Shown here one piece after another: positions 2,777-44,350 of a stretch of 64,000 nt of DNA. The notes beneath the pieces were generated by a model. It saw nothing but the letters and a program-made list of their open reading frames with translations, was not told the DNA's origin and did not search any database. Position numbers and translations under genes: made by a program. This stretch comes from Pseudomonadota bacterium. Lineage in GTDB: Bacteria > Pseudomonadota > Gammaproteobacteria > JAADHS01. Numbering within the stretch: the stretch's first letter is position 1; every line of letters begins with the position of its first letter. Location of the stretch: positions 1 through 64,000 of the forward strand of contig JAKACW010000003.1 of assembly GCA_021821045.1 (NCBI GenBank), given 5' to 3'.

Positions 2777-4087
2777 TCAGTCGCGCGCGACCAGCATGGC
2801 GCCGCCTTGTCCGCCGCCGATGCACAGACTCGCCATGCCACGGTGCGTATTAGTGCGTTCCAGTGTTTTCAAGACGTGCAACACGATGCGCGCGCCACTT
2901 GCACCCACCGGATGACCCAAGCTGACACCGCCGCCATCCACATTGAGACGCGTCATGTCGATCTCGCCGATGGCGCCTGGCGAATCAAGTTCGTTCTTGC
3001 AGTAATCCGCATCCTTCCACGCTTCGACGCAGGCCAGCACCTGGACGGCGAAGGCCTCATTGATCTCCCAGTAGTCGACGTTTCCCGGTTTGAGGTCGTG
3101 CCGCTGCAGCAGGGGCGCCATGGCGTGGGCCGGACCGAGACCCATTTGCGCCGGCTCGAGACCAGCCCACTGACAATCCACCAATCGACCCAGCACCGGC
3201 AATTGATGTTTCTTCACCGCGTCTTCGCTGGCGAGAATGAGCATGGCCGCGCCGTCGGTAACCTGGGCGCTGTTGCCGGCGGTGACAGTGCCGAAAGGTC
3301 GGTCGAACACCGGGGCCAGCTTCGCGAGCTTTTCCACGCTGGAATCGCGACGCAAACCGTCGTCTTCGGCGTAAACATTGCCGTGAGTGTCATAAAGCGC
3401 TTCGATCTCCGACAGCCAACCGTTATCCAACGCGTTGGCTAGATTGTGATGGCTGCGAACGGCGAACTCGTCCATTTGTGTGCGACTGATCTTGAAGCGG
3501 TAGGCGAGATTCTCCGCCGTTTGCCCCATGGACAGGCCGACGACGGGATCGGTCAGTCCGCGCAGCAAACCGATGACCGGTTGCAGATAGCTGAGCTTGA
3601 GCTTGGCGACGGCACCGGCCTTGGCGCCGAAGCTCTTCGCCTTGTTGAAATCGGCCAGCCAGCCGACCATGGGCAAGGTCAACAACACCGGCGCATGGCT
3701 CATGGATTCCACGCCGCCGGCGAGCACCAAATCCGATCGGCCGGTGGCAATGTTCTGCATCGCGTTATCCAACGCTTGCATGCCCGATGCGCAATTGCGC
3801 TGCACCGTCCAGGCCGGAACACGCTTGCCGCAGCCCAGGCGCAACGCGACAACCCGCGCAATGTTGGCTTCGTCCGGGCCGGGCATAACGCAGCCCAGGA
3901 TCACTTCGTCAAACGCATCCGGCTCGAAGGGTTGGCGCGCCACGAGCGGTCGGGCCGCGCCCACCGCCAGGTTCGCCGCGCTGAACGGCCCCGGCTTGCC
4001 TTTGGCTTTTAGAAAAGGCGAGCGCGCGCCGTCCACCACGTACACGGCTCGCATATCGTTTGACTTCGATTTCTTCGCTTGCGCCAT
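2777..4087 (-). CDS. fadI: Acetyl-CoA C-acyltransferase (3-ketoacyl-CoA thiolase)
   Basis: Thiolytic cleavage of 3-ketoacyl-CoA to acetyl-CoA and a shortened acyl-CoA; partner of the FadJ-like subunit encoded next. At 436 residues it matches the FadI length. The nucleophilic Cys is in QRNCASGMQALDNA near residue 98, the general-base His in the GGGVSLGHPVGASGAR stretch, and the second Cys in SLCIGGGQGGAM near the C-terminus. AAAGGA sits upstream of the ATG. The gene follows fadE with a 70-bp gap in which I see no convincing terminator, so cotranscription is likely. Confidence 0.94.
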   Translation of the reverse strand: MAQAKKSKSNDMRAVYVVDGARSPFLKAKGKPGPFSAANLAVGAARPLVARQPFEPDAFDEVILGCVMPGPDEANIARVVALRLGCGKRVPAWTVQRNCASGMQALDNAMQNIATGRSDLVLAGGVESMSHAPVLLTLPMVGWLADFNKAKSFGAKAGAVAKLKLSYLQPVIGLLRGLTDPVVGLSMGQTAENLAYRFKISRTQMDEFAVRSHHNLANALDNGWLSEIEALYDTHGNVYAEDDGLRRDSSVEKLAKLAPVFDRPFGTVTAGNSAQVTDGAAMLILASEDAVKKHQLPVLGRLVDCQWAGLEPAQMGLGPAHAMAPLLQRHDLKPGNVDYWEINEAFAVQVLACVEAWKDADYCKNELDSPGAIGEIDMTRLNVDGGGVSLGHPVGASGARIVLHVLKTLERTNTHRGMASLCIGGGQGGAMLVARD

Positions 4088-38749: not shown

Positions 38750-39664
38750 CTAAAGCGCCTCAATGATGGCCTGCCGAGTCAGGTGCGGCGCAAACAGCTC
38801 GATGAACGAGTACATATAGCCGCGCAAATAGGAGCCGCGGCGGATCCCGATACGCGTCGTGCTCGGTTCGAACAGATGCGCCACATCGACCTTGCGCAGA
38901 TTCACATCGCGCTGCGGATCGAACGCCATCGCCGCCAGCAACCCGATGCCCAACCCCAACTCGACGTACGTCTTGATGATGTCGGAATCAATTGCCGTCA
39001 GTACGATGTTGGGCTTCAGACCTTGCTTCTCAAAGGCCTGGTTGATCTTCGACCGCCCGGCAAACGCAAAGTCATAGGTGATAAGGGGGTACTGGGCGAT
39101 GGCCTCCAAGGTCATCGGCGATACCTTCAGAACCGGATGATCGGGCGGAGCGACGATGCAGCGGTTCCATTCATAGCACGGCAGCATGGCCAAGTCTTCG
39201 AACAAATGAATGCCCTCCGTGGCGATCGCGATGTCGGCGTCGCCGGAGACAACCATTTCAGCGATCTGCGTCGGGCTACCCTGGGTAATATGCAATATCA
39301 CGTTGGGATAGCGCGCCCGGAATTTCTTGACCACCTCGGGCAACGCGTAGCGCGCTTGCGTGTGGGTCGTCGCCACCGTCAGACTGCCCTTCGAATGGTT
39401 TGAGTAGTCCTCACAGACCTTGCGGATGTTATCGGCTTCTTTGAGAATTCGGTCGGCCATCTGCAGAATCGCCTTGCCGGGCTCGGTTACGCCCACCAGG
39501 CGCTTGCCGCTGCGTTCGAAAATTTGGACCTGCAATTCATCTTCAAGTATTTTTATCTGGCTGCTGACGCCCGGCTGGGCGGCGTGCAAAGCTTCCGCGG
39601 CCGCCGAGACATTGAGGCCGCTGCGGGCGACTTCACAGATGTATTTGAGCTGCTGAAGCTTCAT
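38750..39664 (-). CDS. cysB: LysR-type regulator CysB
   Basis: Activator of sulfate assimilation, responsive to N-acetylserine. Of its 304 residues the first 60 form the LysR helix-turn-helix (MKLQQLKYICEVARSGLNVS, then SAAAEALHAAQPGVSSQIK), exactly the CysB-type start. The effector domain keeps TTHTQARYALP and the threonine-rich ligand region. It is slightly shorter than the 324 residues of E. coli CysB. It is divergent from the sulfite reductase gene, its expected target. Confidence 0.93.
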   Translation of the reverse strand: MKLQQLKYICEVARSGLNVSAAAEALHAAQPGVSSQIKILEDELQVQIFERSGKRLVGVTEPGKAILQMADRILKEADNIRKVCEDYSNHSKGSLTVATTHTQARYALPEVVKKFRARYPNVILHITQGSPTQIAEMVVSGDADIAIATEGIHLFEDLAMLPCYEWNRCIVAPPDHPVLKVSPMTLEAIAQYPLITYDFAFAGRSKINQAFEKQGLKPNIVLTAIDSDIIKTYVELGLGIGLLAAMAFDPQRDVNLRKVDVAHLFEPSTTRIGIRRGSYLRGYMYSFIELFAPHLTRQAIIEAL

Positions 39665-39951: not shown

Positions 39952-42264
39952 ATGAATCAAAGTTCACTTGTTGATCACGAGGAAATCGACCGCTACGAGG
40001 ACGCCGTGCGCAATGTGATCTCCGGCCAGATGGACGCCGATCGATTCATGGCGTTCCGCCTCCAGCACGGGATCTACGGCCAGCGCCAGGATAACGAGCA
40101 GATGGTGCGGATCAAGATCCCCGGCGGCCGGCTCGACCCCGATCAGTTGCACAATATCGCCGACGCTTTGGACACGTTTTCCCGCGATCATGGCGCGGCG
40201 GTCACTACGCGGCAGGACATCCAATTCCATTTCGTCAAACTGACGGATACCCCGGCGCTCATGCGCCACCTGGCCCGCGCCGGCCTTACCACCCGCGAAG
40301 CCTGCGGCAACACTGTGCGCAATGTCACCGCCTGCAGCCTGGCGGGTGTCTGCTCCCGCGAGCATGTCGACGTGGACACCTTTGTAAAAGGCGCGGTCGA
40401 CCGGTTCCTGCGCAATCCGCTCACCCAGCACTTGCCGCGCAAATTCAAGATCAGCTTTTCGGGCTGCGAAGCCGACTGCGCCATGGGCCTGATGCATGAC
40501 GTCGGCGTGGTTGCGCGGCGTCACAACGGCGAATTCGGCTTCAAGGTGCTGGCAGCGGGCGGCTTGGGCCACAAGCCCCACGCGGCGATTGTCGTTGAGG
40601 AATTCATTCCAGAAAACGACCTCTTGCCGGTCATCGAAGCGCTGGTGGCGCTGCACAACCGCTACTCGGACCGGAAAAAGCGCGCCAAGGCGCGCATCAA
40701 GTTCTTAGTGGACCGCTTCGGGGAGGATGGTTTTCGCGATAAATACCGCGAGGAAGTGGCACGCACCCGCGCCGCCTTCGACTATGCGCAAAGCCCTCGC
40801 GGCGAGTGGCGGCAAGCGCAAGACGACCTCCCGCCCTGCGGCGCCGGCGCCCCGCGCCAGCCGTACCCCCAGCGTCAACCGGACTTATTTGCGGTCCCGG
40901 TGAGCCTGCCCACCGGCGATATAACCGGCGCCCAAATGCGCGGCCTGGCGCAGCTAATGCGCGACGAAGGTTTGGACGATTTGCGCACCACTGTCGATCA
41001 AAATCTGATTCTCATCGGCGTCGACCGCGCCCGGATTACATCGATCACCGCTGGCTTGGAACTACTTGGCCTCGGCCTGCCGAAAACCGGCGACGACATC
41101 GTGTCTTGCCCGGGCACCACGACCTGCCGGCTTGGCATCACCTCGTCCAAACTCGTGGCTCCGAAGCTGAGCGGCGGCGGCTCGGACTTGCGCATCCGCG
41201 TCAGCGGTTGCCACAACAGTTGCGGCCAGCACCACGTCGGCGACATCGGCATCCACGGCGAGGGCAAGCGCGTCCACGGTCGCCTGATTCCATGCTATGT
41301 CATGCATTTCGGCGGCGATGGCACGGCCAACGGCGCCATTGCGTTGAAGGGTCCTGTCGTTCCCACCACCCGAGTCGAAACCGCCGTCAGCCGGGTCGAA
41401 GGCGCATTTGCCGCCGAGGGCGGGCAGCGCGGCGAATTCTCCACTTGGGCCCGCGGCAAAGGCGAAGCCTATTTCAAGGAGTTGCTGGCCGACCTGGCCA
41501 CGATCGCGGCGGAGGACGTTCCCGTCCTGGCCCGCGACCACGGCGAACAAACCACCTTCCAGGTGCTGCAACTGGGCGGCGGAGAATGTGCCGGTGCCGC
41601 GCAGGATCAAGTCGCATCCAATTTCTCCGAAGCAATGCACGAGCGAAACTATCGCAACGGCTTCGCTTTCCAGCGCAAGTATGAAGACGCTCTCGAGTGC
41701 GCTGAACAGGTTTTTCGTCTGGTAGGCAATTCCGTCCTGTTCTTGTCTGGACGCAAGCCGGAAGAAACTCTGACTGACCTGGTCACAGCGCTAGAAGAAA
41801 GCTCCGCCGCAGCCGCGCCCTTGGCCGGTACGTTGCGTGAACTGCTGCAAATCCGCGCTAGCTTGGAAGGCGAAATTACGCCCGAAGCGTTCGACGCCTT
41901 CTCCAAGGCCATGGATCGGTGGGTATTGGACGCGGGGCGATTGTGCCAGCAGCTGGACCAGCAACTTGATCTGGCGACGTCCCTGCCGGAACTCGCGGCA
42001 TCGGCGAACAAAATAGACAATTTGCCCATCGTCGACCTGTCCGACGTGGAGTGCCCGTTACACTACATCAAAGCCCGCAATGCGCTGCGGGCGTTGGCCG
42101 ACGGCAGCGTTGTCGCGTTGGTGGTGAACTCGACCGAATCGGCGGCCCAAGTCTCCACCAGTTTGGCGCAGGACGGCCACGAGATCGTCGCGCAGGAAGA
42201 ACAGAATGGGAACACGATCGTGCGCGTGCGCAAAAATGCGAGTATGCTTCGCGCCGCGGTCTAA
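39952..42264 (+). CDS. Sulfite reductase haemoprotein fused to a TusA-like domain
   Basis: Assimilatory sulfite (or nitrite) reductase of the CysI/NirA type, 770 residues. Two ferredoxin-like/haemoprotein repeats span about 1-560. The siroheme-[4Fe-4S] ligands are CX5C in CPGTTTC near residue 386 and CX3C in GCHNSCGQHH near 420. After a helical linker of about 110 residues, the last 75 residues form a TusA/SirA-like sulfur-carrier domain: VDLSDVECPLHYIKARNALR with the acceptor Cys near residue 701, then SVVALVVNSTESAAQVSTSL and GHEIVAQEEQNGNTIVRVRK. The fusion would bring a persulfide-carrying cysteine beside the enzyme that makes sulfide. No cysJ, cysH or cysG is present nearby, so the electron donor is unknown; ferredoxin is plausible. 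Confidence 0.88.
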   Translation: MNQSSLVDHEEIDRYEDAVRNVISGQMDADRFMAFRLQHGIYGQRQDNEQMVRIKIPGGRLDPDQLHNIADALDTFSRDHGAAVTTRQDIQFHFVKLTDTPALMRHLARAGLTTREACGNTVRNVTACSLAGVCSREHVDVDTFVKGAVDRFLRNPLTQHLPRKFKISFSGCEADCAMGLMHDVGVVARRHNGEFGFKVLAAGGLGHKPHAAIVVEEFIPENDLLPVIEALVALHNRYSDRKKRAKARIKFLVDRFGEDGFRDKYREEVARTRAAFDYAQSPRGEWRQAQDDLPPCGAGAPRQPYPQRQPDLFAVPVSLPTGDITGAQMRGLAQLMRDEGLDDLRTTVDQNLILIGVDRARITSITAGLELLGLGLPKTGDDIVSCPGTTTCRLGITSSKLVAPKLSGGGSDLRIRVSGCHNSCGQHHVGDIGIHGEGKRVHGRLIPCYVMHFGGDGTANGAIALKGPVVPTTRVETAVSRVEGAFAAEGGQRGEFSTWARGKGEAYFKELLADLATIAAEDVPVLARDHGEQTTFQVLQLGGGECAGAAQDQVASNFSEAMHERNYRNGFAFQRKYEDALECAEQVFRLVGNSVLFLSGRKPEETLTDLVTALEESSAAAAPLAGTLRELLQIRASLEGEITPEAFDAFSKAMDRWVLDAGRLCQQLDQQLDLATSLPELAASANKIDNLPIVDLSDVECPLHYIKARNALRALADGSVVALVVNSTESAAQVSTSLAQDGHEIVAQEEQNGNTIVRVRKNASMLRAAV

Positions 42265-42544: not shown

Positions 42545-42556
42545 CCATTCCAAGCG

Positions 42557-42617
42557 GTGGGAGCGGTTTCCTACCGCGATTCTTCGCCAAGTCAATCGCG
42601 GAATGATCGGCTCCCAC
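42557..42617. repeat. REP-like inverted pair
   Basis: Forward unit at 42557-42581 (GTGGGAGCGG...CCGCGATT) and inverted unit at 42594-42617 (AATCGCGG...CTCCCAC), separated by CTTCGCCAAGTC. The arms are imperfect complements. It lies between the small TusA-like gene and the convergent lipoprotein gene and may serve as a bidirectional transcription barrier. Confidence 0.78.
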
Positions 42618-43163: not shown

Positions 43164-43471
43164 GCGCCCCCCACAGCCTCGAAAAGTAAAAAATACCCGA
43201 TTTATCAGTAGGTAATAATTAGAAGTGACGGCCTCTACCGGTTCGAACCGTCCCCTTGGTATACTTGGCGTCCTTTGTCGCCGGCCGTTTCCGCCACCGC
43301 AACATCGAGCCCTGTGAGGCTCCCGCGGCGCGAAAAACCAGAATTATACACGTGCAAGCGCGTCGGCAATTGGGGGACTTCACAGGATGCGCGGCAACAT
43401 ACGAACGACGCGATTGGATGCTCGCGGTCGTGACCGAATTTTTTAGTCTTGAGTCTGAGGAGAAACAAAAA
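43164..43471. other. Divergent intergenic region, lipoprotein / phosphoribulokinase
   Basis: 308 bp without a supported gene; the kinase reading frame is open through much of it but has no start with a ribosome-binding site. An AT-rich part (43185-43225) faces the lipoprotein gene. CGGTTCGAACCG at 43239-43250 is a 12-bp perfect palindrome. TATACT at 43260-43265 looks like a -10 but lacks a good -35. Confidence 0.45.
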
Positions 43472-44350
43472 ATGTCAGTAAAACATCCGATCATTTCGAT
43501 CACCGGCTCGTCGGGCGCGGGAACAACCACCGTTAAACGCGCATTCGAGCATCTGTTCCGCCGCGAAGGCATCACGCCGGTGGTGGTCGAGGGCGACAGC
43601 TTTCACCGTTACGACCGCAAAGAAATGAAGGTCGCCGTTGAAAAAGCCCGCCAGGAAGGCCGCACCGTGAGCCATTTCGGCGCGGAAGGAAATCATTTCG
43701 ACAAGATCGAAGAACTGTTCCGCAATTATGGCGAGTCCGGCAAAGGCAAGATCCGCAAATACCTCCATAACAGCGAGGAAGCAGCGCCCTACAACCAGGA
43801 ACCCGGCACATTCACGCCGTGGGAAGATATTCCCCCGGGCACGGAATTCCTGTTCTATGAAGGGCTGCACGGTGGCGTCGTCACGGAAACAGTAGATGTC
43901 GCGAAATGGGTCGACCTGTTGATCGGCGTCGTGCCGATCGTCAACCTAGAGTGGATTCAAAAAATCCACCGCGACACAGCGGAGCGCGGGTACTCGGCCG
44001 AAGCCGTAACCGATACCATCCTGCGTCGCATGCCGGACTACGTGAAATTCATCACGCCGCAGTTTTCACGCACGCACATCAATTTTCAGCGCGTGCCCAT
44101 CGTCGACACGTCAAACCCGTTCATCGCGCGCGACATCCCGACGCCTGACGAAAGTTTTGTCATCGTCCGTTTCCGAAATCCCAAGCAGCACGACTTCCCG
44201 TATTACTTGCAGATGCTGCATGGATCATGGATGTCGCGGCCGAATACCATCGTGGTACCCGGTGGCAAAATGGGCATGGCGATGGAAATTATTCTGGCAC
44301 CCATCGTTCATGACTTGATGGAAAATAAGCGCAAGGCCAACCACGCGTAA
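43472..44350 (+). CDS. prkB: Phosphoribulokinase (PrkB type)
   Basis: Phosphorylates ribulose 5-phosphate. Its 292 residues include the P-loop ITGSSGAGTTTVKRAF near residue 9, VEGDSFHRYDRKEM, and LFYEGLHGGVV with the acidic catalytic region; the length and motifs agree closely with E. coli PrkB and other class I bacterial enzymes. GAGGAGAAAC precedes ATG 43472. In autotrophs this is a Calvin-cycle enzyme, but PrkB homologues are also widespread in heterotrophs, and no RuBisCO or other Calvin gene is in the window. It is ended by a strong terminator. Confidence 0.93.
   Translation: MSVKHPIISITGSSGAGTTTVKRAFEHLFRREGITPVVVEGDSFHRYDRKEMKVAVEKARQEGRTVSHFGAEGNHFDKIEELFRNYGESGKGKIRKYLHNSEEAAPYNQEPGTFTPWEDIPPGTEFLFYEGLHGGVVTETVDVAKWVDLLIGVVPIVNLEWIQKIHRDTAERGYSAEAVTDTILRRMPDYVKFITPQFSRTHINFQRVPIVDTSNPFIARDIPTPDESFVIVRFRNPKQHDFPYYLQMLHGSWMSRPNTIVVPGGKMGMAMEIILAPIVHDLMENKRKANHA

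Follow-up and report, generated by a model that had tools for sequence, protein, structure and literature searches.

Assimilation of sulfate, as textbooks describe it, ends in free sulfide, and the locus analyzed here raises the question of whether sulfur can instead be handed on while still bound to the protein that reduces sulfite. Within the window (the whole stretch of DNA analyzed, 64,000 nucleotides of a gammaproteobacterial contig), one uninterrupted open reading frame (39952..42264, + strand, ATG start) encodes a 770-aa protein in which a sulfite/nitrite reductase is followed by a helical middle domain and a TusA domain. The initial annotation had read this gene as a sulfite reductase with its own TusA-like carrier, allowing sulfur to be channelled without release of sulfide, for example towards tRNA thiolation or Fe-S assembly. 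Our own reading, which on balance and with some caution we hold to be probable, is of an assimilatory ferredoxin-type sulfite reductase with its own two-station sulfur relay, running from siroheme through Cys546 and Cys701 to cysteine.

Domain architecture of the protein

The core (residues 1-512) is that of a ferredoxin-type siroheme nitrite/sulfite reductase. Pfam placed a NIR_SIR_ferr half domain at residues 42-109 (40075..40278, +; 109 bits for the best stretch), with a second stretch also matching, and a NIR_SIR 4Fe-4S/siroheme domain at residues 118-270 (40303..40761, +; 156 bits), with a weak second copy at 41188-41481. The [4Fe-4S]/siroheme ligand motifs had been described as intact, and sequence and alignment bear this out: C386-x5-C392 and C420-x3-C424 (41107..41223, +) are present, and all four cysteines are found in 49 of 49 aligned rows. 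The protein therefore carries PF01077, PF03460 and the C-x5-C ... C-x3-C pattern by which siroheme nitrite/sulfite reductases are recognized.

The last part of the protein had been read as a TusA domain with a Cys-Pro acceptor near residue 701. This reading held, the motif being exactly C701-P702 (42052..42057, +), after the first strand; overlooked, however, was a stretch of about 175 residues between core and TusA, which contains an invariant GGGEC546xG. This helical middle domain (residues 513-690; 41488..42021, +) belongs to no Pfam family and is predicted to form a helical bundle. For it, a fold search with a model of residues 515-770 gave Z scores of at most 7.7, values common for helical models, and a PDB profile search matched only designed helical bundles and TusA-like proteins. 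Alignments locate its ECxG motif at E545-C546-A547-G548 (41584..41595, +), the proposed first sulfur acceptor.

The TusA domain (residues 694-761; 42031..42234, +) matched PF01206 with an E-value of 2.9e-11 and 43.5 bits against a cut-off of 28.6. In a model of residues 515-770 built from three sequences, residues 693-760 follow the order strand-helix-strand-helix-strand-strand of the TusA/IF3-like fold, with pLDDT mostly 79-88 in this block. The model aligned with YeeD/TsuB of the YeeE-YeeD complex (Z 12.5, 1.5 Å over 75 residues) and with E. coli TusA (3lvj_C; Z 11.4, 2.1 Å over 76 residues), the next unrelated folds lying clearly below, near Z 9. A full-length model from three sequences was poor (mean pLDDT 42.7) and was used for the tail only. 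Structure prediction, which the initial annotation had put forward as a check, thus indicates with fair confidence that the C-terminus adopts the TusA fold. The domain shares fold, Cys-Pro motif and Pfam family with TusA and YeeD (TsuB), but here it is the C-terminal domain of a reductase, and its motif reads CPLHYxKAR, or CPMNFVKTK in the sister class described below.

Two artifacts were considered and ruled out: a chance or misframed C-terminus, by the domain score, the fold and the selection on the tail; and a sequencing chimera, the window's contig being 113,874 bases long and the identical join occurring in 19 other genomes of the class.

Distribution, conservation and selection

The spread of the fusion was examined in two classes. 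In the window's class, 246 of 369 sampled genomes gave some match, and in 20 of the 369, the window's included, one frame spans both ends of the protein (19 from the direct search; G327 from follow-up). The two other sampled members of the window's family, G001 and G002, lack the fusion. All 61 genomes of a sister class in the same phylum, possibly the Zetaproteobacteria, match a representative fusion, and 57 have TusA in the frame of the reductase: in 53 the match is unbroken and nearly full length, in one it comes as two pieces of one frame, and in three it is cut at contig ends. The remaining four have the N-terminal part only or other proteins. In a tree of the core, the fusions form two groups with good support: one is the sister class, in which 10 of 10 rows are fused, and the other is the window's class. 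The fusion labels require at least three changes on firm branches, so that (i) one gain with losses and (ii) two gains are both possible.

Loss of the acceptor cysteine from most relatives, a result that would have told against the initial annotation, was looked for and was not the case. The alignment for the window's class comprised 28 proteins, 22 of them with a TusA tail; Cys-Pro is kept in 20 of these 22 and lost in two, L004 and L005, while the six tail-less members, L052-L057, include two (L053 and L054) that carry TusA in another frame. Sister-class tails have Cys-Pro in 23 of 23, always as ACPMNFVKTK. These 23 come from the 29 loci read in a search of the phylum; the six others are L078, which belongs to the L004 lineage and has no Cys, and L079, L080, L085, L096 and L098, which have no TusA.

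Nei-Gojobori dN/dS for the TusA part was 0.018-0.143 in nine Cys-keeping pairs, similar to the core, although some dS values were near saturation; in the Cys-less pair L004/L005, dN reached 0.40 in TusA vs 0.11 in the core. Given the low ratios in the first group and the raised TusA dN in the second, the tail is under purifying selection, weaker in the Cys-less lineage.

These data bear on a first alternative, that the TusA-like domain is a docking, dimerization or regulatory module without sulfur chemistry, its Cys a relic. Several relatives do have no TusA, the tails of L004 and L005 have no Cys, and median identity to the window's protein is lower in the tail (46%) than in the core (60%). 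Nevertheless, with Cys-Pro in 43 of 45 counted tails, dN/dS in the range given above, and faster evolution of the domain precisely where the Cys is missing, we think this alternative rather unlikely.

In one family of the window's class (f144), the reductase-TusA junction near locus position 3528 contains an A run of 9 (L054), 10 (L053) or 11 (L051) bases. TusA is in frame only in L051; in L053 and L054, the TusA frame lacks a usual start codon. Slippage that produces proteins of both lengths would account for this, as would an assembly error. An apparent 1018-aa permease fusion in L056 was rejected, its extra N-terminal part being a frame that runs through the upstream permease gene.

A second conserved cysteine

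The GGGEC546xG element is invariant in 28 of 28 aligned proteins of the window's class. In the wider 49-row alignment, 40 rows have a residue at the Cys546 column, and it is Cys in all 40, TusA-less rows included, always as E-C-x-x and with G in nearly all; this count includes L117, whose Cys546 is doubtful, the frame probably being broken in assembly. Of the other nine rows, eight are short reductases ending at the core and one is truncated where its contig stops. The letters that L009 and L010 show in the Cys701 column were disregarded, as these rows have no TusA domain.

The ECxG cysteine ranges from Thermus to Bacteroidota and Pseudomonadota. Enzymes of Aureibacter and Persicobacter (Bacteroidota) have VGECAG and a further domain but no TusA, and the 574-aa enzyme of Thermus oshimai (WP_015065284.1) stops right after the element, at a C-terminal GRGECAV that looks like a mobile tail. 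Judged from these alignments, ECxG is better conserved than TusA; it also seems to be an older and more general feature than the fusion to TusA, with a C-terminal tip as its simplest form.

A cysteine on the arm of DsrC accepts zero-valent sulfur from the siroheme sulfite reductase DsrAB. By analogy with this arm, we propose that Cys546 of the ECxG element would collect sulfur at the siroheme. The analogy is one of function, a tail cysteine taking zero-valent sulfur from a siroheme sulfite reductase; ECxG differs in being covalently joined to an assimilatory-type core. DsrC is also mentioned in a part of PMC13188885, discussed later.

Reductases with and without TusA can occur side by side: in L075 (genome G077), one cysH is flanked by a reductase of the SiR-TusA type and a 763-aa enzyme of the ECAG type without TusA. 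Next after the divergent ECAG reductases of L009/L121 and L010, which have no TusA, comes a protein of 192-198 aa that matches nothing in Pfam or NCBIfam.

Gene neighborhoods

In the window, a cysB-family regulator (38750..39664, -; 506.7 bits against a cut-off of 402 for the CysB family model) diverges from the reductase gene. In relatives, the gene likewise lies next to a divergent cysB and, in most, is flanked by a TauE-type permease and, at its opposite side, by cysH. This arrangement was found in L004, L005, L008, L070, L071 and L072, with cysD and cysN after cysH in L004 and L005, and was assigned by sequence alone in L073 and L114; Pfam checks covered seven of these neighbor genes. L076 has the permease but no adjoining cysH, and L074 has neither. 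The same is true of the window, where neither permease nor cysH adjoins the reductase and the cysH of the genome is on another contig. The window's genome encodes CysH and Sat; as it contains no PAPS_reduct protein other than CysH, CysD was not found. No ThiS-like carrier or cysteine synthase was found as an adjoining gene in the window, the ThiS and ThiF matches of this genome sitting on other contigs. T. oshimai shows the same complement of genes: the reductase, cysH, TauE, sat and siroheme genes.

The sister-class operon is richer. In L111 the order is threonine synthase-like protein, ThiS/SAMP1-like protein, NIL protein, CysK, ThiF/MoeB-type E1, SiR-TusA, radical-SAM/symporter protein, CysH, CysD and CysN, and L107, L108 and L109 agree with it in the parts read. 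The sister-class CysK scored 462.9 bits against a cut-off of 351, and the E1 has no rhodanese domain. L107 and L109 have a second, stand-alone TusA between cysH and cysD; in L111 it is located farther away. The ThiS/SAMP1-like carrier of L111 (9602-9880, -) ends in Gly-Gly-Cys, one residue past the usual Gly-Gly, and to judge from this ending may need trimming before use. The radical-SAM/symporter protein (L111:2241-4874, -; L108:2951-5590, +; L109:4254-6875, -), of about 875 aa, joins a radical-SAM part (45-339) to a sodium/sulfate-type symporter (443-870).

A passage of PMC1779556 (Burroughs, Iyer, Aravind 2006) describes an operon class, 4e, with ThiS, JAB, E1, SirA (=TusA), PAPS reductase and sulfite reductase, and proposes that it moves sulfur to ThiS-like proteins. 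The sister-class operon resembles class 4e as set out there, in that TusA and sulfite reductase share one cluster, but TusA is separate in class 4e and fused here. A ThiS-like protein and an E1 stand beside the sulfite reductase in the sister-class loci, while in the window's class none adjoins, the window included; a JAB gene was not found at any of the loci read.

A proposed sulfur relay

We propose the following scheme. Sulfite would be reduced at the siroheme-[4Fe-4S] center; Cys546, in the ECxG element adjacent to the core, would accept enzyme-bound sulfur at about the zero-valent level; this sulfur would then pass as a persulfide to Cys701 in the TusA domain; and Cys701 would deliver it to cysteine synthesis, either directly to cysteine synthase or via ThiS-like carriers where the operon has them. 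The domains, the ligands, the TusA fold, the conservation of both cysteines, selection on the tail, the operons of relatives and occurrence in two classes are observed or predicted; we infer the S0 intermediate, the order Cys546 then Cys701 and the target of delivery.

The channelling idea of the initial annotation stands in so far as the fold, the conserved Cys and the sulfate-assimilation operons support it, and the presence of the fusion in many relatives suggests that sulfur may be handed on directly and not released as toxic sulfide. Its destination and its sulfide chemistry did not find support. No observation made here indicates tRNA thiolation or Fe-S assembly, and those needs could be covered by two further stand-alone TusA genes in the window's genome. 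Cysteine seems the likelier destination, because the neighbors are sulfate-assimilation genes, to which the sister class adds a ThiS-like carrier, an E1 and cysteine synthase. As to the chemistry, a persulfide needs zero-valent sulfur, so the carrier would take S0 from the enzyme, not sulfide. Passages of PMC13188885 (2026) report that S0 exceeded sulfide among the products of assimilatory sulfite reductases from four organisms, and that cysteine synthases used glutathione persulfide; TusA is not mentioned in that text. According to part of PMC4175335, TusA of M. cuprina was on its own unreactive with sulfide, glutathione persulfide and sulfite. If this lack of reaction with free sulfide or persulfide is general, it favors direct hand-over within one protein.

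Some observations count against the relay. The fusion has no Cys in L004 and L005, and no TusA is present in L052, L055, L056, L057 and L079, so the relay would be dispensable in those relatives; in addition, G001 and G002 are unfused, and the window has no adjoining ThiS-like carrier, cysteine synthase or cysH.

The most interesting of the rivals places TusA on the substrate side. Sulfonate from the APS/PAPS reductase CysH would reach the siroheme as Cys701-S-SO3-, and sulfite would never be free. 'Bound sulfite' is an old idea of protein-bound sulfate reduction, and such a protein-bound route is what this alternative would amount to if true. Consistent with it, most relatives examined have cysH immediately downstream of the reductase gene, thiosulfonate can be held by TusA proteins (in part of PMC4175335), and YeeD can carry both -S-SO3- and -S-S- states (in part of PMC11073785). 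The thiosulfonate states reported, however, come from tetrathionate or thiosulfate and not from CysH; cysH is not an adjoining gene in the window's genome; and many reductases with an adjoining cysH, such as L071 and L072, have no TusA. We consider this route unlikely.

A broader and more tentative extension is that assimilatory sulfate reduction in these bacteria is largely protein-bound from siroheme to cysteine, with the ECxG arm acting like DsrC, TusA carrying on from it, and free sulfide not an intermediate; we regard this extension, drawn by analogy, as possible but doubtful.

Relation to earlier work

A carrier fused to a sulfite reductase has been known since 2006, when ThiS was reported at the C-terminus of sulfite reductase in Nocardioides and Acidothermus (in part of PMC1779556). 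As described there, that fusion is alike in having a C-terminal sulfur-carrier domain on a sulfite reductase in a sulfate-assimilation setting; it differs in that the carrier is ubiquitin-like ThiS, working through a thiocarboxylate, and not TusA with its Cys persulfide. Other sulfate-assimilation fusions are named in a passage of PMC2275785. We found no description of a TusA-sulfite reductase fusion in the open-access literature, which leaves out most subscription papers.

A passage of PMC13188885 states that no DsrC-like carrier is known for assimilatory sulfite reductases. A reductase with a fused carrier that two classes have retained lends itself to testing on-protein sulfur hand-over, and the question reaches wider through the ECxG cysteine because this element occurs where TusA is absent.

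Substrate of the reductase core

The relay presupposes sulfite as the substrate, yet sequence models do not assign the core to a characterized subfamily. Its best NCBIfam matches were NirA/ferredoxin-nitrite reductase models, at 213 of 523 and 207 of 594 bits needed, followed by PRK13504 (133 of 457) and CysI (90 of 757); all of these scores fall below the respective cut-offs, so the core belongs to neither the E. coli CysI nor the NirA equivalog. Among solved structures, those of plant nitrite reductases and of M. tuberculosis NirA, an enzyme known to be a sulfite reductase, are nearest. The protein shares its catalytic core and iron-sulfur ligands with the ferredoxin-type NirA/CysI family (1zj8, 3b0h); members of that family end near the core, whereas here 250 further residues follow. 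No flavoprotein partner gene was found adjoining the reductase gene in the window.

The higher scores of the NirA-type models, all below their cut-offs, and the identity of the closest structures could be taken to mean that the core is an assimilatory nitrite reductase whose TusA domain serves something else. We judge this very unlikely: the neighbors in relatives are cysB, TauE, cysH, cysD and cysN, and the window's genome has a separate NirB-type enzyme (844 aa), its only other sulfite-reductase-like gene, and contains nothing else with this Pfam domain that would qualify as a sulfite reductase. From the gene context of relatives we infer that sulfite, not nitrite, is the substrate.

The least credible alternative is that the enzyme works in the oxidative direction and receives sulfur for its siroheme from TusA, in the manner of Dsr-type sulfur oxidation; in sulfur oxidizers, TusA does feed DsrE/DsrC. 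Against this, the neighbors are assimilatory, and the core is monomeric and NirA-like, not DsrAB (dsrB model, 44.6 bits against a cut-off of 341.5).

Sequences downstream of the gene

Just downstream of the reductase gene (42549-42613), the window contains a pair of short dispersed repeats: GGGAGCGGTTTCCTACCGCGATT is accompanied by an inverted mate that has diverged from it. A 23-mer of this repeat occurs, with at most one mismatch, in 402 copies (207 +, 195 -) in the 4.5 Mb genome, compared with 0 for a control, which marks the repeat as a REP-like element. Two genes downstream of the reductase is a phosphoribulokinase gene (43256-44350, +; 516 bits against a cut-off of 362), which hints at Calvin-cycle autotrophy.
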